From Phytobacter diazotrophicus (GTDB taxonomy: Bacteria; Pseudomonadota; Gammaproteobacteria; Enterobacterales; Enterobacteriaceae), in NCBI GenBank assembly GCA_004346725.1, contig SMDE01000002.1, positions 186,001-250,000 on the forward strand: a stretch of DNA of 64,000 bases, in the 5' to 3' direction. Below the pieces are notes generated by a model that ran no database searches, had not been told where the DNA came from, and saw only the letters and a program-made list of their open reading frames with translations. A program made the translations under genes and the position numbers. The first letter of the stretch is position 1, and each line of letters opens with the position of its first letter. Below are positions 5,628 to 15,898 of the stretch, in pieces.

Positions 5628-6215
5628 TCAGGGGGTGACCTTCGACGCATAATGATTGTTTATTGCGTAGAGCGTACATTTCGGTGCTCCGCTGCTTTGT
5701 TGGCTTGAGCAGATCGTAAGGGCTATTGCGGCCGCTTCGTCGCTGGCCCAATAGGCCGCCCCCCATTCCCCCTGCGTATCGGTCGCGGGTGAGTTTGTTG
5801 CGCCAGTTTCGATAAACGCAAATCCACCCGCCGATATACCGACCAGCATCGCGTTATCGAAGGATGCCCATGAATTCCGACGCACAGCGCCAGGCGCCGC
5901 AACCATATTTTGGACGTCCTGTTTTCCGGCCCGCAGATGAAAAGGTTGCATGCACGAATACCCTGTATATTCTGCCGTGCCACTGGACTGGCATATCCCT
6001 GCCGCAGCACAACCACAGCAGCATATTCGTGGCATGCAAATGTGATGGTTGCGAAGGCGTATCGGTTTGGGTTCAGCGTCCAGCGACCAAACTTGGCTGT
6101 CCCTGTCGTTCCATTCGTGATTAACACGACCGCTAAAGGCTTATTACTGACTGGCCGAGTGACAAACGTATCAAGTACCGCAGGCCGACCATTGCTTAAT
6201 GTGACTTATAGCGTC
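5628..6215 (-). pseudogene. Decayed alpha/beta hydrolase (dienelactone hydrolase-like)
   Basis: Two overlapping minus-strand frames together spell a hydrolase. The upstream frame has RPAVLDTFVTRP, VVLITNGTTGTAKF and HEYAAVVVLRQGYA. The downstream frame carries the nucleophile elbow GISAGG and a C-terminal segment ending ASKVTP. The two frames are offset, so at least one frameshift separates strand beta-4 from the nucleophile. The expected oxyanion motif reads NGT instead of HGT, and a stop lies just upstream of the preserved part. No complete reading frame survives. Family assignment is by motif only. Confidence 0.6.
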
Positions 6216-6714
6216 AGAAGTTCCCTGATAATCCCGTCAATTTACTGATGTTCAGCGGTATCCATTAAAGATTCCGTGCGCCCAGGAAAACTGATGGTGG
6301 ACACCACCAATGACAAAAGAGAGATGCAGGGTGAGTGATAATACGGCTGAACATCTAAAGATATCCGTATTTGACCTGAGATATACCGCTTTGCAATTAT
6401 GTACTGGCAGGTAGAAACGCTAATTCCGATAGCGCCTTTGTATTTATGACTTATATTTCTTAATCCATCAGGTGATGATGAAGGATATTAAGATAAGCGA
6501 ATATTTACGGTGAATATAAATAGATAAAAAAACAGCCGTAAGTGAGGTTTAGGCACACAATCGCACTACAACTCAATAAAAGGCACCGCGTTATCCTTGA
6601 TTGAGGATAGTGTTGCCTCGCCCTCTTCAACTCACGATATTCATTCCCTCACAATGCCCTGTCTGATGAACAAGCAGCTTATGAGGAATGAGGAATCTTC
6701 CTGTTCATTACTTC
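6216..6714. other. Intergenic region, nothing recognised
   Basis: AT-rich sequence between the decayed hydrolase and the cscR-like gene. Short frames such as 6597-6782 lack a family, a ribosome site and protein-like composition. No tRNA, insertion-sequence end or long repeat is visible. Confidence 0.5.
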
Positions 6715-7710
6715 TCAAAAGGACTCGCGAACTAACCAGGGACTATCAACCAGTACCCTTTCGTTGCTCTCATCACCGTTAATGATGTGCAATGTACTCA
6801 GCCGACCAATTTCATAGTGCGGTAACTGTACCGTTGATAAAGGAGGCAAAAACAGGTTGCCAATCCCTACAAGGTTATCGTAGCCAATAACGCCGATATC
6901 TTGTGGGATACGTATCCCTCTCGCCAAAAGGGTCTGATACACCATAAATGCAATACGGTCGTTACCGCAAATAACCGAATCAAACTGCGGTTTCCCCTCA
7001 TGAATATGCGCTAACAGAATGTCAGGAATATCACGATAATGTTCATCGCCAAATTGCATATAACAATGATCCAGCGTGTCAGGATCAATTCCTGCCTCGC
7101 GACAGGCTCGCTCCAGCCCTTTTCTGCGACGGGAAGTTGCCAGGTGATTGGCGGGCAGATGCAAACAAATTGGCCGACGGTACCCTGCATCCAGCAACGC
7201 TTGTACTGCAGTATATTGCCCCTGTTCATCGTCAGGGATATAACAGGCAACAGGCTCCCCTTGATTCTGACAGTTTGCCAGCACACAGGGATGCGTAAGT
7301 AATTTGGGCGGGACGCGCACTTCGCGCAGCCCCATGGTAGTGAAAATGATACCCCCGGGTCGGTGCGCGAGGAGAAGATCGACAATATCGTCAGGATTAT
7401 CATCAGAGAACATATTCACCACGAAGCTGTTCCAGCCGTGTGCGCGGGCAGTCTCCTCAATTGACAGTGTAATTTCTACCGAAAAGGGTGTGGTTACCGT
7501 ATCCAGTGCGAGGACGCCAATCGTTTTATTTTTCGTTCCGACACTACGGATCTGTTTTGCTGACAGATCGGGTACGTAGTTCAGATGCAGAATCGCCTCC
7601 TGTACCCGCGCAAGCGTCTCAGGCTTTACGCGTTCAGGGTTATTCAGTGCCCGAGAAACGGTCATTAACGATACATTAGCCATTTTGGCCACATCTTTTA
7701 AAGACGCCAT
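6715..7710 (-). CDS. cscR: LacI-family repressor of the sucrose/fructan operon (CscR-like)
   Basis: 331 residues from the ATG at 7710, which follows CGGAGGG; the frame extends upstream to 7782 without a better site. The LacI headpiece (LKDVAKMANVSLMTVSRAL) is at the very N-terminus, with a hinge, then a periplasmic-binding-like sugar domain (PDLSAKQIR..., GVIGYDN). It is divergent from the symporter gene, with near-perfect LacI-type palindromes between them, so it most likely represses that operon until sucrose or fructose is present. The family is certain; the csc assignment rests on context. Confidence 0.85.
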   Translation of the reverse strand: MASLKDVAKMANVSLMTVSRALNNPERVKPETLARVQEAILHLNYVPDLSAKQIRSVGTKNKTIGVLALDTVTTPFSVEITLSIEETARAHGWNSFVVNMFSDDNPDDIVDLLLAHRPGGIIFTTMGLREVRVPPKLLTHPCVLANCQNQGEPVACYIPDDEQGQYTAVQALLDAGYRRPICLHLPANHLATSRRRKGLERACREAGIDPDTLDHCYMQFGDEHYRDIPDILLAHIHEGKPQFDSVICGNDRIAFMVYQTLLARGIRIPQDIGVIGYDNLVGIGNLFLPPLSTVQLPHYEIGRLSTLHIINGDESNERVLVDSPWLVRESF

Positions 7711-7841
7711 AACCCTCCGTTTAGCATAAACACGCCTCAATCCTCGTTGCGTAAGCGAAGCTTCACAATAAAGATTATCCATAAAAATGAACTCATTATT
7801 CTAAGCATTGAGCCTGGGATTTTGGGAATTTGGAACAAAAA

Positions 7842-7857
7842 TTTGACACAGATCTCA
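7842..7857. promoter_or_regulatory. Possible CRP site upstream of the fructan operon
   Basis: TTTGA-N6-TCTCA matches the CRP consensus TGTGA-N6-TCACA at 8 of 10 core bases with correct spacing. It lies about 10 bases upstream of the first repressor palindrome. CRP activation would suit a catabolic sugar operon, but this is a weak match. Confidence 0.35.
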
Positions 7858-7867
7858 AAATACCAAT

Positions 7868-7942
7868 GTTAACGTTAACTTTTGTGATTAACATCGTATA
7901 TCGACCCAAAAAGCGGTGTGGGTAACGCATGTTAACGTTACC
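7868..7942. promoter_or_regulatory. LacI-type operators and promoter of the fructan operon
   Basis: A perfect 12-base palindrome GTTAACGTTAAC is at 7868-7879. A second copy (GTTAACGTTACC) is at 7931-7942, inside a wider GGTAACG/CGTTACC inverted repeat that starts at 7921. Between them TTAACT at 7875-7880 and TATATC at 7897-7902 form a plausible -35/-10 pair with 16-base spacing, so the repressor would block or loop the promoter. The second operator covers the upstream ATG at 7929, arguing that translation starts further down. Confidence 0.75.
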
Positions 7943-7976
7943 ATCAACACATATAATCCGCTATGAGATTTCTCAG

Positions 7977-9215
7977 ATGAAAAAACGGTCTTCTCGCAAC
8001 TATTTGCTGCTCAGCGCCCTGTTGTTCTTTTTCTTCGTCACCTGGTCGTCATCCAGCTCGCTTCTTTCAATATGGCTTCATCAGGAAGTGGGATTAAAAG
8101 CCTCTGAAACAGGTATTATTTTTTCCGTCTTATCGGTCTCAGCCCTGGTCGCTCAGGTGTTCTACGGTTTTATTCAGGACCGTCTTGGCCTGCGCAAAAA
8201 CCTGCTGTGGTTTATTACGGCCCTACTGATCCTCTCCGCCCCCGCTTATCTCTGTTTTAGCTATTTGCTCAAGCTTAATATCTTACTGGGCAGCATTTTT
8301 GGTGGTCTGTTTATTGGCATGACATTTAACGGCGGTATCGGCGTGCTGGAGTCATATACCGAGCGTGTTGCACGTCAAAGCCATTTTGAATTTGGACGGG
8401 CTCGCATGTGGGGCTCTCTGGGTTGGGCCGTCGCAACATTTTTTGCCGGGCTGCTGTTTAATATTAACCCTGACCTTAACTTTATAGTGGCGTCATGTTC
8501 TGGCATGGTCTTCTTCTGTCTGCTGGCCCGGTTAAAAGTTGCCGCTCCGGCGAGCATGGAGAAACTGGAAATTGGGGCTAAAAAAGTCTCCCTCGATGAT
8601 GCCTTACGCCTTCTTATGTTACCTCGTTTCTGGGCACTTATTTTCTTCGTGGTCGGAACCTGTATTTACGGCGTTTACGATCAGCAATTCCCGGTTTATT
8701 TTTCTTCGCAATTTCCTACCCTGAAGGAAGGAAATGCCATGTTTGGTTATTTAAATTCATTTCAGGTTTTTCTGGAAGCGGCAGGGATGTTCTGTGCACC
8801 GTGGCTGGTTAATCGCATTGGCGCCAAAAATGGGCTTATTTTCGCTGGGATGGTGATGGCGCTTCGTATGATCGCCTCAGGCCTGGTTGAAGGACCGCTG
8901 CTCATTTCAATTACAAAACTGCTGCATGCCGTTGAGTTGCCGATATTGTTGGTTGCAATATTTAAATATAACAGCCTGAATTTCGATAAGCGTTTATCTT
9001 CCACCATTTATCTGGTGGGATTTGCCTGCACGAGCTCCGTTATTGGCACCGTGTTATCACCACTGGCGGGCTTCAGCTACGAAAAATTTGGCTTTGCCCA
9101 GTCTTATCTGATCATGGGCATTATGGTGTTCTGCACCACATTTATTTCCATCTTCCTTTTGCGTCCAAATAAGCCCTCAACTGAGCAATCCTTTTTACAG
9201 CCAGGCGCTGTGTAA
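7977..9215 (+). CDS. cscB: Oligosaccharide:H+ symporter (CscB/LacY family)
   Basis: 412 residues with twelve predicted membrane helices, matching the 415-residue size of CscB. The N-terminal block FFFFVTWSSSSSLLSIWLHQEVGL and the FGRARMWGSLGWA loop are typical of the oligosaccharide:proton symporter family. ATG 7977 (MKKRSSRN) is preferred to ATG 7929, which lies in an operator. It is the first gene of the operon, 13 bases before the cytoplasmic GH32. Likely substrates are sucrose or short fructo-oligosaccharides; the exact sugar cannot be read from sequence. Confidence 0.85.
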   Translation: MKKRSSRNYLLLSALLFFFFVTWSSSSSLLSIWLHQEVGLKASETGIIFSVLSVSALVAQVFYGFIQDRLGLRKNLLWFITALLILSAPAYLCFSYLLKLNILLGSIFGGLFIGMTFNGGIGVLESYTERVARQSHFEFGRARMWGSLGWAVATFFAGLLFNINPDLNFIVASCSGMVFFCLLARLKVAAPASMEKLEIGAKKVSLDDALRLLMLPRFWALIFFVVGTCIYGVYDQQFPVYFSSQFPTLKEGNAMFGYLNSFQVFLEAAGMFCAPWLVNRIGAKNGLIFAGMVMALRMIASGLVEGPLLISITKLLHAVELPILLVAIFKYNSLNFDKRLSSTIYLVGFACTSSVIGTVLSPLAGFSYEKFGFAQSYLIMGIMVFCTTFISIFLLRPNKPSTEQSFLQPGAV

Positions 9216-9228
9216 TTTATCGGGAGAA

Positions 9229-10671
9229 ATGACAATGACATCCTTATTAAAAAAGGCCGAAGAGACGCTTGAAAAAGCACATGCTGGAATTAACCCCCGC
9301 TGGTATCCACGCTATCACCTCGCCGCACGGGCTGGCTGGATGAACGATCCTAACGGGCTGGTATGGTTTGACGGTTGGTACCATGCATTCTATCAACATC
9401 ATCCCTATTCAACAAAATGGGGACCGATGCACTGGGGGCATGCCCGCAGTAAAGATTTAATTCACTGGGAACATCTGCCTGTTGCCCTTGCTCCGGAAGG
9501 TCCGGCAGATAAAGACGGCTGTTTTTCCGGCTCCGCTGTAGTGGTTGGCGATACGCTGGCATTGATTTACACCGGACATAAATTCCACGGCCCGTCTGAT
9601 ACGGATGACAACCTCTATCAGGTGCAATGTCTGGCAACCAGTGGTGACGGTATCCATTTCGAACGTCACGGAATGGTCATTGATACACCTCCAGGACTGC
9701 ATCATTTCCGTGATCCGAAGGTATGGCGTGAAGGGGAATTCTGGTACATGGTTGTGGGCTCACGCGTGGGAGATACCGGCCAGGTACGCCTTTACCGTTC
9801 AGCCGATCTTCATAAATGGTATGACGAGGGCATTTTTGCCGAGGCTGAACAAGGTATGGGCTATATGTGGGAATGCCCTGATTTCTTTACCCTGAACGGC
9901 AGGCGTGTGCTGATGTTCTCTCCCCAGGGCATGGCGGCTAAAGGTTATCAAAATCGTAACCTTTTCCAGAGTGGATATTTGCTCGGTGAATGGCAGCCAG
10001 GTCAGCCGTTTATACATGACGGACAATTCATTGAGATAGACAGCGGTCACGATTTTTATGCCCCGCAAAGTTTCCTTAGTCCCGACGGACGTCGAATCGT
10101 CATAGGGTGGCTGGATATGTGGGAATCACCAATGCCGGAGCAGCAGGATGGCTGGGCGGGTATGCTCTCCCTGCCGCGCGAATTAACCTTAGGTGATAAT
10201 AATCGCCTGATTATGAAGCCCGTCGAAGAAGTGTCAGCCATGCGAGGGAGTTATTTTCCTGTCCCAGTCCATTGCCTGAATAATCAACAGGTATTTGTCG
10301 CTGCAGATGCCGAAGCAGTAGAATTAATCCTGCAATGGAGCTGTAACGAGTCTGCCGCAGAACAGTATGGTGTTACGCTGGGAGATGGATTACGCGCTTA
10401 CGTTGATAACCAAGCTCAGCGTCTGGTGTTAGAGCGCAATTATCCTGATTTCTCGCTGACTGGAACGCGTAGCATTCCCCTGCCCGAGGGCAATATACTT
10501 TCACTGCGAATGTTTATTGACCGTTCGTCCGTCGAACTTTTTGTCAATGAAGGCGAAGCCTGTTTAAGCAGCCGAATTTATCCGCAGCCAGAGCAACGCG
10601 ATATATTATTATTTGCAAATAGCGGAACCGCTGTGTTGAAAGAGGCAGGATACTGGTCACTGGATAAATAA
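9229..10671 (+). CDS. cscA: Cytoplasmic GH32 beta-fructofuranosidase (CscA-like)
   Basis: 480 residues, close to CscA (477). All three GH32 hallmarks are present: WMNDPNG with nucleophile Asp40, FRDP with transition-state stabiliser Asp162, and WECP with acid/base Glu215. A C-terminal beta-sandwich follows (FIDRSSVELFVNEG). No signal peptide, so it should cleave imported sucrose or fructo-oligosaccharide to fructose and glucose in the cytosol. It sits 13 bases behind the symporter gene. A second ATG two codons downstream is possible. Confidence 0.92.
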   Translation: MTMTSLLKKAEETLEKAHAGINPRWYPRYHLAARAGWMNDPNGLVWFDGWYHAFYQHHPYSTKWGPMHWGHARSKDLIHWEHLPVALAPEGPADKDGCFSGSAVVVGDTLALIYTGHKFHGPSDTDDNLYQVQCLATSGDGIHFERHGMVIDTPPGLHHFRDPKVWREGEFWYMVVGSRVGDTGQVRLYRSADLHKWYDEGIFAEAEQGMGYMWECPDFFTLNGRRVLMFSPQGMAAKGYQNRNLFQSGYLLGEWQPGQPFIHDGQFIEIDSGHDFYAPQSFLSPDGRRIVIGWLDMWESPMPEQQDGWAGMLSLPRELTLGDNNRLIMKPVEEVSAMRGSYFPVPVHCLNNQQVFVAADAEAVELILQWSCNESAAEQYGVTLGDGLRAYVDNQAQRLVLERNYPDFSLTGTRSIPLPEGNILSLRMFIDRSSVELFVNEGEACLSSRIYPQPEQRDILLFANSGTAVLKEAGYWSLDK

Positions 10672-10762
10672 TTACGCTCGATCTCATATTACTTTTCATA
10701 TTGTGTATTTTTGTGCCAGTCTCTGGCTGGCATTATATTGTCTGAAATAACGAGATAGAAAA

Positions 10763-12046
10763 ATGGATGAGAAATTAGCACAACATAAAGCCCTAATTAA
10801 AAGCAGGACAAAACCATCTTCAAAGGAAAAAGCACTGGCGCTATTTTTATCCTTTGTTTCTTTTCCAGCCTTCGCCGAAAACAATGCAGAGATATCGGAT
10901 ACTTATACCGGGAACTATCAAAGCTATTTTCACGATGAGGATGACAGCCTTCAACGCAGACATTCAACAACAAAAACCGATGCTCAACATTCAGGAACGC
11001 ACATCTCTTCCTCCCCAGTAAAGGAAGGAACAGCAACGGTACAGCCGTCTCCATCAGTACCTGCGGCACTTCCTTCTGAGGCCAGCAGCACGACATTAAC
11101 AGAAAATCAGACTGTTGCAGCAAACAATTCTGACGATGTAAGTCTATTACGCTTGAGGCAGGAAGCCCCGCCGGTTCACTGGAATAATATCGGACGCAAT
11201 ATGGAAGCTGGCGGTCTGCATGGAAACATCGGCAGCCAGATAGAAATTGATGATGTCCGCTGGAATAATAAAAATAAAAACAGCGGTAAATTCAAGCTTG
11301 CAACCATTCAGGCTTTTTTGAGACATGATGAATTACCGAACTGGTACTTTGGCTTCTGGAATGCCAGGGAAGACAGCTATAAAGGACAATTCAGTAATCA
11401 GGACTACAAAGGAACGAACACTATTAATGAGCTTTTTGTCGGCCATATTTTCGAGACCTGGCGCGGGAATATCGGCACAGAAGTGATGGTTGGTTCCGAG
11501 ACGGCAACGAAGCGCTGGAAAAACAGATTCAAAGTCTGGCAGGACTTGCGCTTATCGAATAAATGGAGTATCGCCGGATATTCTTATGGTGAATATCAAC
11601 CTCAGGGTAACCAACCCGGCAATGGCGACCTTGAGCAGTATATTTTTGAGACTGAACCTGCAATCCAGTACCGAGTGAATCCGGATCTCGGTTTATATTT
11701 ACGCCCGTACTACTACTATAACCGGCAGGTGCGTGAAAGCTGGGGTGATATTGTTGAGCAGGAGTGGAAAGTGACTGCCGGATTCTGGCGAAACTGGTAT
11801 CCATTGTTAACGTCAATGTATATAGGCTTCGGACAGGACAAAATTGAGAACGCCAGTAATGCCAAAGAACTCTTTTACGATGGCCGCTACAAATTTATTG
11901 GCGGCACTATCAGCTATCCCGTCTTTGGTGAAGTTCGCCTTTATGGTGAATTCAAAGCGTCATTCACGAAAGAAACAGGACTCTGGACATACACAGGTCA
12001 CTCCTGGAATCCTTTCACTGTCGTTGGTGTGACTTATAACTTTTGA
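10763..12046 (+). CDS. OmpG-like outer-membrane porin with a long Ser/Thr-rich N-terminal linker
   Basis: 427 residues. A signal peptide with an unusually long basic N-region ends near residue 39 (FPAFA/EN). About 100 residues of low-complexity Ser/Thr/Pro/Ala-rich sequence follow, then roughly 280 residues of alternating aromatic beta-strands ending in VVGVTYNF, the terminal aromatic signature of outer-membrane barrels. The barrel resembles OmpG and the gene's neighbour at 13568. Its place between two GH32 genes suggests uptake of fructo-oligosaccharides across the outer membrane. The linker is absent from classical OmpG and its role is unknown. Confidence 0.75.
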   Translation: MDEKLAQHKALIKSRTKPSSKEKALALFLSFVSFPAFAENNAEISDTYTGNYQSYFHDEDDSLQRRHSTTKTDAQHSGTHISSSPVKEGTATVQPSPSVPAALPSEASSTTLTENQTVAANNSDDVSLLRLRQEAPPVHWNNIGRNMEAGGLHGNIGSQIEIDDVRWNNKNKNSGKFKLATIQAFLRHDELPNWYFGFWNAREDSYKGQFSNQDYKGTNTINELFVGHIFETWRGNIGTEVMVGSETATKRWKNRFKVWQDLRLSNKWSIAGYSYGEYQPQGNQPGNGDLEQYIFETEPAIQYRVNPDLGLYLRPYYYYNRQVRESWGDIVEQEWKVTAGFWRNWYPLLTSMYIGFGQDKIENASNAKELFYDGRYKFIGGTISYPVFGEVRLYGEFKASFTKETGLWTYTGHSWNPFTVVGVTYNF

Positions 12047-12061
12047 TACTCAGGGTATAAC

Positions 12062-13555
12062 ATGAGAACTTTTATTACGGCGACGTTCGTCGCTCTGCTG
12101 GCGCTTTCTGTCGGAAATACCCCCGCGTATTCACAGATGTCTAAAGAAACATTACAGAACAAAAGCGTCAATCAGGTTAATGACTTTTTTCCGCGCATTG
12201 AAGGGTCATTTATTGGCGATCCGATGCCTGTCTATAACGAAGGTGTATTTAATATTTTTTATCTCAATGATGTGCGCGGCGGCAGCGATTTAGGCGTACA
12301 TGCGATTCACCTTCTCTCCAGCGCCAACTTATATAATTATCAGAACCATTCAGAGGTTATTCCTTACGTTAATGATGTCAATGATCCAGAGCTGCTTTTA
12401 GGGACTGGCTCCATTATCAAAGTTGGCGATACCTGGCACGCATGGTATACCGCACATAATGAAAACGTATTTCCGGTTGAGTCAATCATGCATGCCACCA
12501 GTAAAGATCGTTTTCACTGGGTCAAACATCCACAGGATACCATCCTGCCGGGCACTAACTATCGGGGCAATGACTTCCGCGATCCGCATGTTGTCTGGGT
12601 TGATGAAAAGAAAGAATACTGGATGCTGATCACGACCCGCAGCAAGGGTCGCGGCATTATCGCGCGTTATAGCTCAACGGATTTAAAAACCTGGAGAGAT
12701 CGTGGTGTATTTTTTGACAACGACACCATCACCAGTAATTCAAACCTTGAATGCCCGACACTTGTCTTCTTTAACGGGCGTTGGTATCTGAGCTTTAGCG
12801 ATCAGTGGCCACTACGACTAACACAATACCGGGTTGCGGACAATCCAGAAGGTCCATGGCATAAGATGGATAATTATGTTGTGGATGGCTCAGGCTTTTA
12901 TGCAGGTAAATTGGCAATTAAGGACGGACGTTTATTTGTGTTTGGATGGATCCCGACAAAGGCAGGAAACAGCGATAGTGGCAATATCGACTGGGCAGGA
13001 AACCTCGTCGTCCATGAATTGACCGCAGGTATAAAAGGCCAGCTCAACAGCATAATTCCACAAGAGCTTCAGAAGGCGATAAAAGATAACCGTGGGCCGG
13101 TTCAGATGATAAAACCGATTAAAACGCTCAAGACGTCAACACAAATTGGTCCCTTACAATCATCTATTTATCCGTCTTTACCCAGGCGTGGAGAGTTGTC
13201 CGCAACGGTGGATATTCCCTCTTCGGGAATGGTCATGAGCTTTGGGCTGACAGATGACCGCGTGAGTGACGCGACGCTGAATGTTGTGTTCAACAGAAGT
13301 AAAGGTAAAGTCTATTTCTTTAATTCTCCTTTGGCATCGATTAACCAGAGTAACGCTGAATCCTGGGTTGATATTCCGCTCGGTGAAAAAATTAATCTAC
13401 GCGTGCTTATACAGAACTCAATTGCTGTTTTTTATATTAACGACAAAGCGGCATTTAGCACCCGGATGTATGCCATGCCGGACAAACCATGGAGCATCAG
13501 TTTGCCTCAACACGATAGTCTCCACGCACAATTGCAATTTAAAGAAATGATCTAA
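12062..13555 (+). CDS. Exported GH32-type fructan hydrolase or fructosyltransferase
   Basis: 497 residues with a clear signal peptide (cleavage near residue 24, PAYS/Q). The five-bladed propeller motifs are divergent but recognisable: GDPMP with Asp53 in place of WMNDPNG, FRDPHV with Asp174, and LECPTL with Glu230. A C-terminal beta-sandwich runs from about residue 350. The enzyme probably acts in the periplasm on levan- or inulin-type oligomers admitted by the flanking porins. The altered nucleophile motif leaves the specificity open, including fructotransferase activity. It lies 15 bases after one porin gene and 12 before the other. Confidence 0.75.
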   Translation: MRTFITATFVALLALSVGNTPAYSQMSKETLQNKSVNQVNDFFPRIEGSFIGDPMPVYNEGVFNIFYLNDVRGGSDLGVHAIHLLSSANLYNYQNHSEVIPYVNDVNDPELLLGTGSIIKVGDTWHAWYTAHNENVFPVESIMHATSKDRFHWVKHPQDTILPGTNYRGNDFRDPHVVWVDEKKEYWMLITTRSKGRGIIARYSSTDLKTWRDRGVFFDNDTITSNSNLECPTLVFFNGRWYLSFSDQWPLRLTQYRVADNPEGPWHKMDNYVVDGSGFYAGKLAIKDGRLFVFGWIPTKAGNSDSGNIDWAGNLVVHELTAGIKGQLNSIIPQELQKAIKDNRGPVQMIKPIKTLKTSTQIGPLQSSIYPSLPRRGELSATVDIPSSGMVMSFGLTDDRVSDATLNVVFNRSKGKVYFFNSPLASINQSNAESWVDIPLGEKINLRVLIQNSIAVFYINDKAAFSTRMYAMPDKPWSISLPQHDSLHAQLQFKEMI

Positions 13556-13567
13556 AGGGATATTATT

Positions 13568-14581
13568 ATGAAATATCATCATGCCCTGACTGTTATTTTT
13601 TCACTTATGCTCCCGACGCTGGCAAATGCAAGCATGAGCATCATGAAGGATTTATCGGGCAAGGTCATTGCCGTTGATCCGTGGTCCTATCTTGATGAAG
13701 ACGTCATGTGGACATCAACACGCTCCTCTAATCCTGCAGGCGGACGCGTTCATGGTCAGCTTAAAATGAAATATGCAATCGAAGATAATAACTGGCGAAA
13801 CAGCCATTTCCACAGCGGGAATGATTCTCTCACTTTCGTTCAGGGTGTTATGCGTAATGACGCTTTACCCGGTTGGTATCTGGCATTTTCGGAAGGCAGA
13901 ACCACAAATTATAATGGAACATGGGAAAACCAGACCTATCTCAGCCAGAACCAGTGGACACAACTCATTGTCGGCCATGAATATTTCTACAAACGTCTGC
14001 GCTATGGCTGGGACGTTATGGGAGGAAGTGCCTCAATTGAAGATCGCTGGCAGGCACGCGTCAAATTCTTTACCGATCTGCGTGTAACAGACAATTTTTC
14101 GGTCTTCAATTATCTTTACCAACAGATTGATCATCGTCGTAGCGGAGGTTCACAAAATGACCGTGACGTCCGTTCATTTCAGGCCGAGCCCGGGGTTCAA
14201 TATATTATCAACAACACTACCGGTGTTTGGTTACGTCAGAAATTTACCTCCTCTGTGTTAGACAGAGCGCAGTGGGGTGATATCGATGATAAAACCTGGA
14301 CGACCTCAATGGGTATTTGGCACAACTGGGGGAAATTATCAACGACATTCAGCGGGGGATATGGACATTATAAGAAAAATAATGCCCAGCGCGAAGATGG
14401 TGAAGTCTTCCAGAATACCAGAAACCGCTTCCTAAAAGTATCGGCTAATTACCCGCTGACATCTCGATTTACACTCTCCGGAGAGATAACAGGTTCATTA
14501 ATTAATCAGAGTGGGAGTTGGGTAACTAACGGTGATGCCATCACCACCGATTATAAACTCATGTTGGATTACAATTTTTAA
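13568..14581 (+). CDS. OmpG-like outer-membrane porin, compact form
   Basis: 337 residues with a standard signal peptide (cleavage near residue 21, LANA/S) and a barrel ending in LMLDYNF. It shares the arrangement RNDALPGWYLAFSEGR / LIVGHEYFYKRLRYGWDVMGG with the larger porin at 10763 (HDELPNWYFGFWNARE / LFVGHIFETWRGNIGTEVMVG), so the two are paralogues, but it lacks the long linker. Predicted to be a monomeric sugar channel for the fructan locus. Confidence 0.75.
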   Translation: MKYHHALTVIFSLMLPTLANASMSIMKDLSGKVIAVDPWSYLDEDVMWTSTRSSNPAGGRVHGQLKMKYAIEDNNWRNSHFHSGNDSLTFVQGVMRNDALPGWYLAFSEGRTTNYNGTWENQTYLSQNQWTQLIVGHEYFYKRLRYGWDVMGGSASIEDRWQARVKFFTDLRVTDNFSVFNYLYQQIDHRRSGGSQNDRDVRSFQAEPGVQYIINNTTGVWLRQKFTSSVLDRAQWGDIDDKTWTTSMGIWHNWGKLSTTFSGGYGHYKKNNAQREDGEVFQNTRNRFLKVSANYPLTSRFTLSGEITGSLINQSGSWVTNGDAITTDYKLMLDYNF

Positions 14582-14614
14582 AGTCATTTTTATATAACTC
14601 CAGCGAAACAAAGA

Positions 14615-14648
14615 AAGCACATATATCGCCGTGCCGGTATATGTGCTT
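14615..14648 (+). repeat. Perfect hairpin between porin and fructokinase genes
   Basis: AAGCACATATA (14615-14625) and TATATGTGCTT (14638-14648) form an 11-bp stem with a 12-base loop. There is no following T-run, so it is not a classical terminator. It could stabilise the upstream mRNA or reduce expression of the fructokinase relative to the rest of the operon. Confidence 0.6.
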
Positions 14649-14703
14649 CCTTACCCCCGGTCATTCCAGGGTATAAATAACTAATTATGTTTGAGGTAGT
14701 GTC

Positions 14704-15651
14704 ATGAACATTTGGACTATTGGCGATGCGGTAGTTGATCTCTTACCGCTAACAGATATGCAGTATCAGGCCTGTGCCGGAGGTGCCCCTTTCAATGTGG
14801 CGGTTGGAACTGCTCGCCTGAATTGTCAGAGTGGATTTATCGGCCGGGTAGGTGACGACGATTTCGGTCTTTTTTTAAAGGAAACCCTCTGCTCATCGGG
14901 AGTTTCTGTCCAGAGTATGCAGATGGATCCTCATCACAGAACCAGTACCGTACTGGTTTCCCTTAATAATCACGGTGAACGTGGATTTACGTTTCTTACC
15001 AATCCTTCGGCAGATCAGTTTTTAACACCTGACGCTCTCCCCGATTTAAGTACAGGAATATTGCATTTCTGCTCTCTGGCGCTCGTCGCTAAAACCTGTC
15101 GCAACACGTTAGTTACGGCTATCGAAAAAGTAAAACAGAGTAACGGTTTGCTGAGTTTTGATGTGAATTTACGTGAGCAAATGTGGAGCGATCGGCAGGA
15201 GATGCATGACACTGTGCACCATTTCGCCCTACAGGCTGACATACTTAAATTATCTGAGGAAGAATGGTACTGGCTGGCAGAGACGCACGATTTTAACCAA
15301 GCGCTGGATTTCCTTAAATACCTACCAGCACGGCTGAAGGTTGTAACCTATGGCGCGCAAGGCGCAATGATTCTGCAGAACGACATGATCATTCATTTTA
15401 ATGGCTACACCGTAAACAGCGTTGATACAACGGGAGCGGGTGATGCGTTCCTGGCGGGTTTACTTGCTTATATCGCTCAAGCTGGAATGCCGCAGGACAT
15501 TGAGCAAATCAAAGACGCCATGACGCAGGCCAGCGCCTGCGGCGCACTGGCAACAACCCGGAAAGGCGCGCTGACAGCCCTACCGGATAGTAAGACGCTG
15601 AATGAATTTATCAGACAATATCCTCTGCCGGACTATGAAATAAAAGCGTAG
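14704..15651 (+). CDS. cscK: Fructokinase (PfkB family)
   Basis: 315 residues, typical for CscK/ScrK. The N-terminal GGAPFNVAVGTARL motif and C-terminal DTTGAGDAF with catalytic Asp247 are both intact. It phosphorylates intracellular fructose to fructose 6-phosphate using ATP. The ATG follows GAGG at good spacing. It is the last gene of the locus, 122 bases after the second porin, with the hairpin between. Non-PTS sucrose loci carry the same repressor, symporter, hydrolase and fructokinase set. Confidence 0.9.
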   Translation: MNIWTIGDAVVDLLPLTDMQYQACAGGAPFNVAVGTARLNCQSGFIGRVGDDDFGLFLKETLCSSGVSVQSMQMDPHHRTSTVLVSLNNHGERGFTFLTNPSADQFLTPDALPDLSTGILHFCSLALVAKTCRNTLVTAIEKVKQSNGLLSFDVNLREQMWSDRQEMHDTVHHFALQADILKLSEEEWYWLAETHDFNQALDFLKYLPARLKVVTYGAQGAMILQNDMIIHFNGYTVNSVDTTGAGDAFLAGLLAYIAQAGMPQDIEQIKDAMTQASACGALATTRKGALTALPDSKTLNEFIRQYPLPDYEIKA

Positions 15652-15898
15652 CCTCAACGATAGCCAGCAACACCCGGCCTGAAGCGTTCCGGTGCAAGCC
15701 ACCGGGACTCGTTTTGCTTTCCTCCTCCCTATTTTGAAACGACATATTAAGTGTAACCTCCGCTTATGGCGCGGCGCGATCGGCCGCGGGAGGCATGACG
15801 GCAGCGATAAGAAAAAGCAGAAATGCGTACATGTTTGCATAAGTGATTAAAAACTAATGACGCCGACGCCCCTTAACAACGGATAACAGCTCAATTTA

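Follow-up and report, generated by a model that had tools for sequence, protein, structure and literature searches.

A seven-gene cluster of Phytobacter diazotrophicus orthologous to the Escherichia coli fos locus, with a proposed two-compartment mechanism of fructan utilization

We analyzed a 64,000-nucleotide stretch of the Phytobacter diazotrophicus genome (assembly GCA_004346725.1, contig SMDE01000002.1, positions 186,001 to 250,000; hereafter the window) and describe a cluster of seven genes, at positions 6715-15651 of it, that probably encodes a system for the utilization of fructans. The host genome comprises 5.54 Mb in 31 contigs. All seven open reading frames (ORFs) are intact and uninterrupted at their coordinates, and their families agree with Pfam, which bears out the layout given in a preliminary description of this DNA: a gene for a LacI-family repressor and, divergently transcribed, genes for a symporter of the major facilitator superfamily (MFS), a cytoplasmic glycoside hydrolase of family GH32, an OmpG-family porin, an exported GH32 enzyme, a second OmpG-family porin, and a fructokinase. 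The genes are named here after their orthologues in the fos locus of Escherichia coli.

6715..7710, minus strand: fosR orthologue, LacI-family repressor, 331 amino acids (Pfam LacI and Peripla_BP_1)
7977..9215, plus strand: fosT orthologue, LacY-family symporter, 412 amino acids (Pfam LacY_symp, E 9e-126)
9229..10671, plus strand: fosE1 orthologue, GH32 fructosidase, 480 amino acids (TIGR01322 scrB_fam, over its cut-off)
10763..12046, plus strand: fosX orthologue, OmpG-family porin with an N-terminal leash (PF16946, E 7e-132)
12062..13555, plus strand: fosE2 orthologue, exported BT1760-like GH32 enzyme, 497 amino acids (Glyco_hydro_32N, E 6.4e-24)
13568..14581, plus strand: fosY orthologue, OmpG-family porin without a leash, 337 amino acids (PF16946, E 2.9e-129)
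14704..15651, plus strand: fosK orthologue, PfkB-family fructokinase, 315 amino acids (Pfam PfkB)
15686..15708, plus strand: terminator-like hairpin of 9 pairs directly 3' of fosK (pattern scan only)

Two gene starts were corrected after annotated orthologues. The repressor ORF is open to 7782 and its start was set at 7710, while the symporter ORF is open from 7929, a mechanical start that falls within an operator-like palindrome, and was set at 7977. FosE1 matches Pfam Glyco_hydro_32N and 32C (E 4.5e-105); its N-terminus, read by eye, has no signal-like sequence, hence its classification as cytoplasmic. The best NCBIfam match of FosK is a fructokinase model, with a score of 364.8 that lies below the model cut-off of 450. 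In an alignment with LacY, FosT has the same residues at R302, K319, H322 and E325, and a valine at the position of E269; identity at the former four residues, which we take to have roles in LacY symport, supports proton symport by FosT. The G+C content of the locus is 46.5%, versus 52.6% for the whole window, with a minimum of about 45% in X-E2-Y.

According to the available excerpt of its published account (PMC3325963), the fos locus lies on the AGI-3 island of the avian E. coli strain BEN2908 and consists of an operon with fosT, E1, E2, X, Y and K and a divergent fosR, where FosT is an MFS protein and FosE1 and FosE2 are GH32 enzymes. The same excerpt links the locus to growth on short-chain fructo-oligosaccharides (scFOS): a fosT deletion strain was unable to use scFOS, and a plasmid carrying the whole locus restored growth on them. 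On the BEN2908 chromosome (NZ_LR740776.1, 4013583-4022478) we found a LacI regulator, an MFS protein, a GH32 enzyme, an OmpG porin, a second GH32 enzyme, a second OmpG porin and a kinase, so that the divergent fosR followed by fosT-E1-X-E2-Y-K is present in the window with the same genes, order and orientation. The proteins of the two loci are identical at 86% (R), 92% (T), 81% (E1), 73% (X), 82% (E2), 90% (Y) and 69% (K) of positions over essentially their full lengths, FosK and FosX being the most diverged parts in this other genus. Among the proteins compared, R, T, X, E2 and Y each had the Fos protein as best match; a short plasmid-borne form described below equals BEN2908 FosE1 in the case of E1 (81.4%) and is slightly nearer in the case of K (71% versus 69%). 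The preliminary description had recognized no described enterobacterial operon with exactly this gene set, a claim of novelty that does not hold, as the published BEN2908 locus consists of these very genes, all seven in this order.

The csc operon for sucrose utilization in E. coli (L035, NZ_CP027546.1) shares with the window a homologous repressor, symporter, GH32 enzyme and fructokinase, as well as a related double operator-like site. However, the window proteins are only 55% (R), 39% (T), 56% (E1) and 45% (K) identical to CscR, CscB, CscA and CscK, and csc has neither porins nor an exported GH32 enzyme, its GH32 gene being divergent from the kinase and symporter genes. Because identity amounts to 69-92% with the Fos proteins versus 39-56% with the Csc proteins, we regard the cluster as a fos orthologue and csc as a remoter relative. 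Membership in csc was rejected, as protein identities and gene layout both point away from it. The csc and fos systems probably descend from a common ancestor.

We also considered whether the cluster could be a csc operon that acquired porins and an exported GH32 enzyme and that mainly serves sucrose use. This reading draws on the homology of R, T, E1 and K and on a pair of GTTAACGTTA sequences present in both systems, 63 bp apart in fos and 64 bp apart in E. coli csc. It appears very improbable to us, since all seven proteins are nearer to those of fos, the csc layout is different, and the genome holds a separate scr set with its own porin of the LamB type. This set includes the one further GH32 gene of the genome, located on contig C1 within scrK-scrY-scrA-scrB-scrR.

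L034 1561-8076 (G000:C1): scrKYABR set for sucrose uptake by the phosphotransferase system (PTS), on another contig of the window's genome

The scr fructokinase, sucrose-PTS IIBC component, sucrose-6-phosphate hydrolase and fructose/sucrose repressor all score over the NCBIfam cut-offs, and the LamB-type ScrY carries a Pfam Sugarporin_N extension. FosK of the window is 47% identical to ScrK of the same genome. Given that the genome has its own scrKYABR set, 'sucrose locus' is an unfitting name for the cluster, and the earlier view of it as an expanded sucrose locus is not upheld, although the cluster may also contribute to sucrose use. A search of the window's genome for GH68 levansucrase, the levan-making enzyme, gave no match.

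For fos of BEN2908, the excerpt of PMC3325963 reports two FosR operators and a CRP site; FosR binds both operators and represses, and glucose represses as well. Putative counterparts of all three sites lie between fosR and fosT of the window and are shared with BEN2908; they are conserved throughout the 16 promoter regions that were aligned.

7842..7857, plus strand: CRP-like site TTTGA-N6-TCTCA (TGA and TC-CA invariant in 16/16)
7866..7880, plus strand: operator-like palindrome 1, ATGTTAACGTTAACT (15/15 bases invariant in 16/16)
7885..7894, plus strand: invariant block TGATTAACAT adjoining operator 1 (16/16)
7929..7943, plus strand: operator-like palindrome 2, 63 bp downstream of operator 1 (core TAACGTTA invariant in 16/16)

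The two palindromes form a direct repeat with the 63-bp spacing. With at most one mismatch allowed, a 13-base operator pattern matches the window four times against 0.05 expected; every match lies between R and T, the two palindromes each being counted once per strand. The element at 7842..7857 would be a CRP site, consistent with the one mentioned for fos in PMC3325963. The accessible text of PMC4052901 names LacI regulators for sucrose and FOS, and FosR is not among the names given there.

To describe the distribution of the locus, we compared 17 outside loci that had been selected for their resemblance to E2 or to the DNA of the locus; the sequences of L001 and L002 are nearly the same, and L015 ends within fosY. 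A search for the same gene order in other genomes, suggested in the preliminary description, recovered R-T-E1-X-E2-Y in the same order and orientation in 17 of the 17, and the arrangement is therefore not a matter of chance. FosK at an identity of at least 69% follows in ten of the 17 loci; a search of L012-L016 gave no FosK, and downstream in L018 and L019 there is only a kinase match of 26-27%. The nearest named loci are those of Kosakonia sp. S29 and Phytobacter ursingii (95-100% identity per protein), where the locus occupies the same genomic place, since the DNA on both flanks matches the window. Altogether, fos loci occur on contigs named Kosakonia, Phytobacter, Citrobacter, Pantoea, Erwinia, Lelliottia, Hafnia, Klebsiella and Cedecea, and plasmids carry them as well, one of these being classed as conjugative. 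A complete copy is present on the large E. coli plasmid pNDM-M121 (L001 7943-16838), so the locus can ride on large plasmids of this kind.

At E 1e-100 or better, FosE2 was found in 9 of 392 Enterobacteriaceae genomes and in 4 of 394 genomes of the order, and at E 1e-40 or better in one of 369 genomes of the class, namely the window's own, which is included in all three counts. Of 5,426 E. coli genomes, 36 contain 80% or more of the E. coli fos DNA; the window DNA matched 36 of the 5,426, in none of them over 80% of its length at the search sensitivity used. Among 133 plasmid records with any tblastn match, 38 have an E2 that is 80-90% identical. As to the alignments used throughout, A1 omits L001 and L002, which are near-identical to BEN2908, and L015; A2 and A3 consist of the window and L006-L019; A4 omits L015, where fosY is cut by the contig end; and A5 omits L001, L002, L015 and L016.

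Gene order was checked in 20 E2-bearing loci (L001-L003, L006-L019, L029, L038 and L039, with L023-L028 outside the check), and X, E2 and Y are contiguous in all of them. X-E2-Y behaves as a cassette that occurs with and without T/E1, while T/E1 also occur without X-E2-Y, as in the following plasmid.

L030 8112-15170 (NZ_CP173571.1; E. coli plasmid of 61.8 kb): short fos-like form with T-E1-K, a RafY-type porin and R

This short form shares T, E1, K and R with the window (90, 81, 71 and 83% identity, respectively) and shows no match to X, E2 or Y, in whose stead it has the RafY-type porin (PF16966). Fourteen E. coli records match fos over T-E1 only, at about 82%, L030 being the one examined. 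Truncated fos loci in Klebsiella are mentioned in the excerpt of PMC3325963. In L038, from a further family of the order, T-E1-X-E2-Y is present, and neither R nor K has a match within 18 kb. In L039 (G701, 6140-11477), from another family, R and X-E2-Y are present and T/E1 have no match in 16 kb, from which it follows that X-E2-Y can stand with the repressor alone.

A hairpin is found between the core gene E1 and the X-E2-Y genes.

10713..10733, plus strand: hairpin GTGCCAGTC-TCT-GGCTGGCAT, 9 pairs, without a U-tract

Since it has no U-tract, it is not a typical terminator. Its predicted stability is -13 kcal/mol, which was equalled in 0 of 200 shuffles, and the number of pairs is nine in the window, eight in BEN2908 and L009, and seven in L012. 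Nine of 15 rows share the 19-base core TGCCAGTCTCTGGCTGGCA unchanged; L009 departs from it only in the loop, and L012 has one-sided changes with pairing still retained. We had considered a compensatory double change and dropped it, because in the best-folding stem L012 is altered on one side only, and in L009 the change falls in the loop. L013/L014 and L018/L019 have another sequence at this position, and in L018/L019 another short inverted repeat was noticed by eye closer to fosX. The hairpin stands at the boundary of core and cassette and is kept in close relatives.

Of the two GH32 enzymes, FosE2 begins with MRTFITATFVALLALSVGNTPAYSQ, which read by eye is signal-peptide-like and has no lipobox cysteine, so the enzyme is predicted to be periplasmic. 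Its five best sequence matches in the PDB are all chains of BT1760 (E 5e-44 to 5.9e-43), and a Foldseek search with the FosE2 model likewise ranks five BT1760 chains at the top (E 7.7e-22 to 2.4e-20). BT1760 is described as a cell-surface endo-levanase in the excerpts of PMC5245892 and PMC6560043. The latter names its nucleophile, stabiliser and acid/base, together with active-site residues Thr104, Gln239 and Arg244. FosE2 residues D53, D174 and E230 correspond to this catalytic triad and T115, Q248 and R252 to the other three, and each of the six is invariant in 15 of 15 FosE2 sequences. Among solved enzymes, FosE2 is nearest to BT1760, a nearness that is no proof of endo-action on beta-2,6 fructan. 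In the levan polysaccharide utilization locus of Bacteroides thetaiotaomicron, BT1760 acts with a SusC/SusD pair (PMC6560043, in the part available); the window cluster has two OmpG-family porins instead, and Pfam detected no SusC-like TonB-dependent transporter or SusD-like lipoprotein among its seven proteins.

This likeness bears on an alternative that is compatible with the identity of the locus as fos. The cassette X-E2-Y could act on a substrate other than that of the core, levan or graminan being examples; E2 would then be located on the cell surface or beyond it, and the core would take up only the short products set free. The surface location of BT1760 would fit such a division of labor, as would the separability of cassette and core, with T-E1-K on the E. 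coli plasmid and R-X-E2-Y in L039, and another fructan type is considered as a possible inducer in the excerpt of PMC3325963. However, the N-terminus of FosE2 points to the periplasm (in the sequences that include it), and Pfam identified no secretion component among the seven window proteins. We regard this alternative as possible, although rather unlikely.

FosX and FosY match the Pfam family Porin_OmpG_1_2 (PF16946) with 439.6 and 431 bits against a cut-off of 23, over positions 1-294 of the 294 of the profile. The match covers residues 123-427 of FosX, the porin domain of FosY starts at residue 43, and FosY is 31.5% identical to the FosX barrel. This assignment is not new, as the RefSeq annotation of E. 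coli already labels both proteins 'OmpG porin family protein'. In a literature search on FosX/FosY or on OmpG and fructans, none of the matches listed was, by its title or the opening of its abstract, about these porins. OmpG-type channels are generally unspecific. It could accordingly be argued that FosX and FosY are unspecific porins carried by chance and without a role in fructan entry, the more so as the short plasmid form lacks both and has its RafY-type porin instead. We find this quite improbable in view of the contiguity of X, E2 and Y in 20 of 20 loci from three families of the order, as given by kinship labels, plus the named genera, and of the distribution of the family. Among 198 Enterobacteriaceae genomes, 14 have some PF16946 match; it is full-length in four, all of them E2 carriers with two porins each, and the other ten have a single partial match each (best E 1.1e-8; six over the family cut-off).

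FosX has an additional region that has no counterpart in FosY. Its order is a signal-like N-terminus, a conserved peptide YTGNYQSYFHDE (residues 48-59), a variable linker, and the barrel from residue 123.

10904-11134 of the window: YQSY(F) peptide and fast-changing leash before the OmpG barrel of FosX (residues 48-124)

YQSY is present in 15 of 15 aligned FosX proteins, extended to YQSYF in 14 and to YQSYY in L019, and it also occurs in FosX of BEN2908, L038 (41% identical) and L039 (49% identical). The stretch from YQSY to RLRQ spans 54-89 residues, of which 53-71% are Ser, Thr, Ala, Pro, Asn, Gly or Gln, versus 41% in residues 125-427 of the window protein; the leash is predicted as loop. 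Averaged over alignment columns, the majority share is 0.80 in residues 48-59, 0.35 in the linker (residues 60-124) and 0.87 in the barrel (residues 141-427), the linker value being alignment-dependent because gap-majority columns were scored 0. Sugar porins can carry a periplasmic N-terminal extension, as ScrY of the same genome has its Sugarporin_N domain, which is of another kind than the FosX leash. The mature N-terminus of FosX is expected on the periplasmic side. As a conjecture that we ourselves consider unlikely, FosX might be a leashed porin whose mature N-terminal YTGNYQSYFHDE peptide serves as a dock for FosE2 at the inner channel mouth or as a reversible plug of the channel. If so, X-E2-Y would amount to a mobile unit in which an outer-membrane channel is paired with a trimming enzyme of its own, corresponding, with passive porins, to the SusCD-levanase utilisome.

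The best explanation of the whole, which we hold to be highly probable, is that the cluster and the fos locus of E. coli are orthologues, and we propose a two-compartment mechanism for it. FosR at the two palindromic operators would repress the operon, and CRP-cAMP (cyclic AMP) would activate it in the absence of glucose. Oligofructans would cross the outer membrane via the OmpG-family channels FosX and FosY, and FosE2 in the periplasm would trim those chains whose length exceeds what the importer accepts. FosT would take up the short products by proton symport, FosE1 would cleave them in the cytoplasm, and FosK would phosphorylate fructose. The gene set and order, protein families, orthology, conserved operator-like sites and conserved active-site residues were all observed here; periplasmic location, endo-action and linkage preference of FosE2 are putative, and entry through the porins is likewise a predicted step. 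Part of the two-compartment fructan system outlined in the preliminary description is supported, including an outer-membrane and periplasmic part, a symporter and cytoplasmic part, and a fructan-directed gene set, and the csc homology of R, T, E1 and K that it invoked is real.

Several observations weigh against this mechanism. The excerpt of PMC3325963 calls FosX and FosY proteins of unknown function. No solved structure matches FosX by sequence up to E = 1, so its OmpG label comes from the Pfam model, and the FosX structure model is too poor for interpretation, with a predicted local distance difference test score (pLDDT) of 43.4. The FosE2 model is moderate (pLDDT 63.4, predicted template modelling score 0.64) and superimposes on BT1760 chains with template modelling scores of 0.56-0.58 and root-mean-square deviations of 8.6-11.3; identity to BT1760 is just 21-22% in the Foldseek alignment, and the BT1760-type C-terminal domain PF16346 scores 29.3 bits, slightly below its cut-off of 31.4. 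FosE2 resembles a beta-2,6 endo-levanase, whereas expression of BEN2908 fos reportedly depends on beta-2,1 scFOS. In addition, the cassette of L039 is accompanied by the repressor and by no match to the importer or the cytoplasmic enzyme.

The gene set was already known as fos, and the details added here are the leash, the cassette behavior and the likeness to BT1760; a report on a Dorea FOS locus (PMC6952197), in the part available, has no bearing on the window locus. The fos locus, known from an island of avian E. coli, is a wider enterobacterial module, and two of its genes 'of unknown function' can now be put to the test as a pair of OmpG-family channels accompanied by a BT1760-like trimming enzyme. 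This raises the question of whether the cassette allows the use of levan-type or longer fructans, a question relevant to which bacteria of the gut and of plants benefit from prebiotic fructans.

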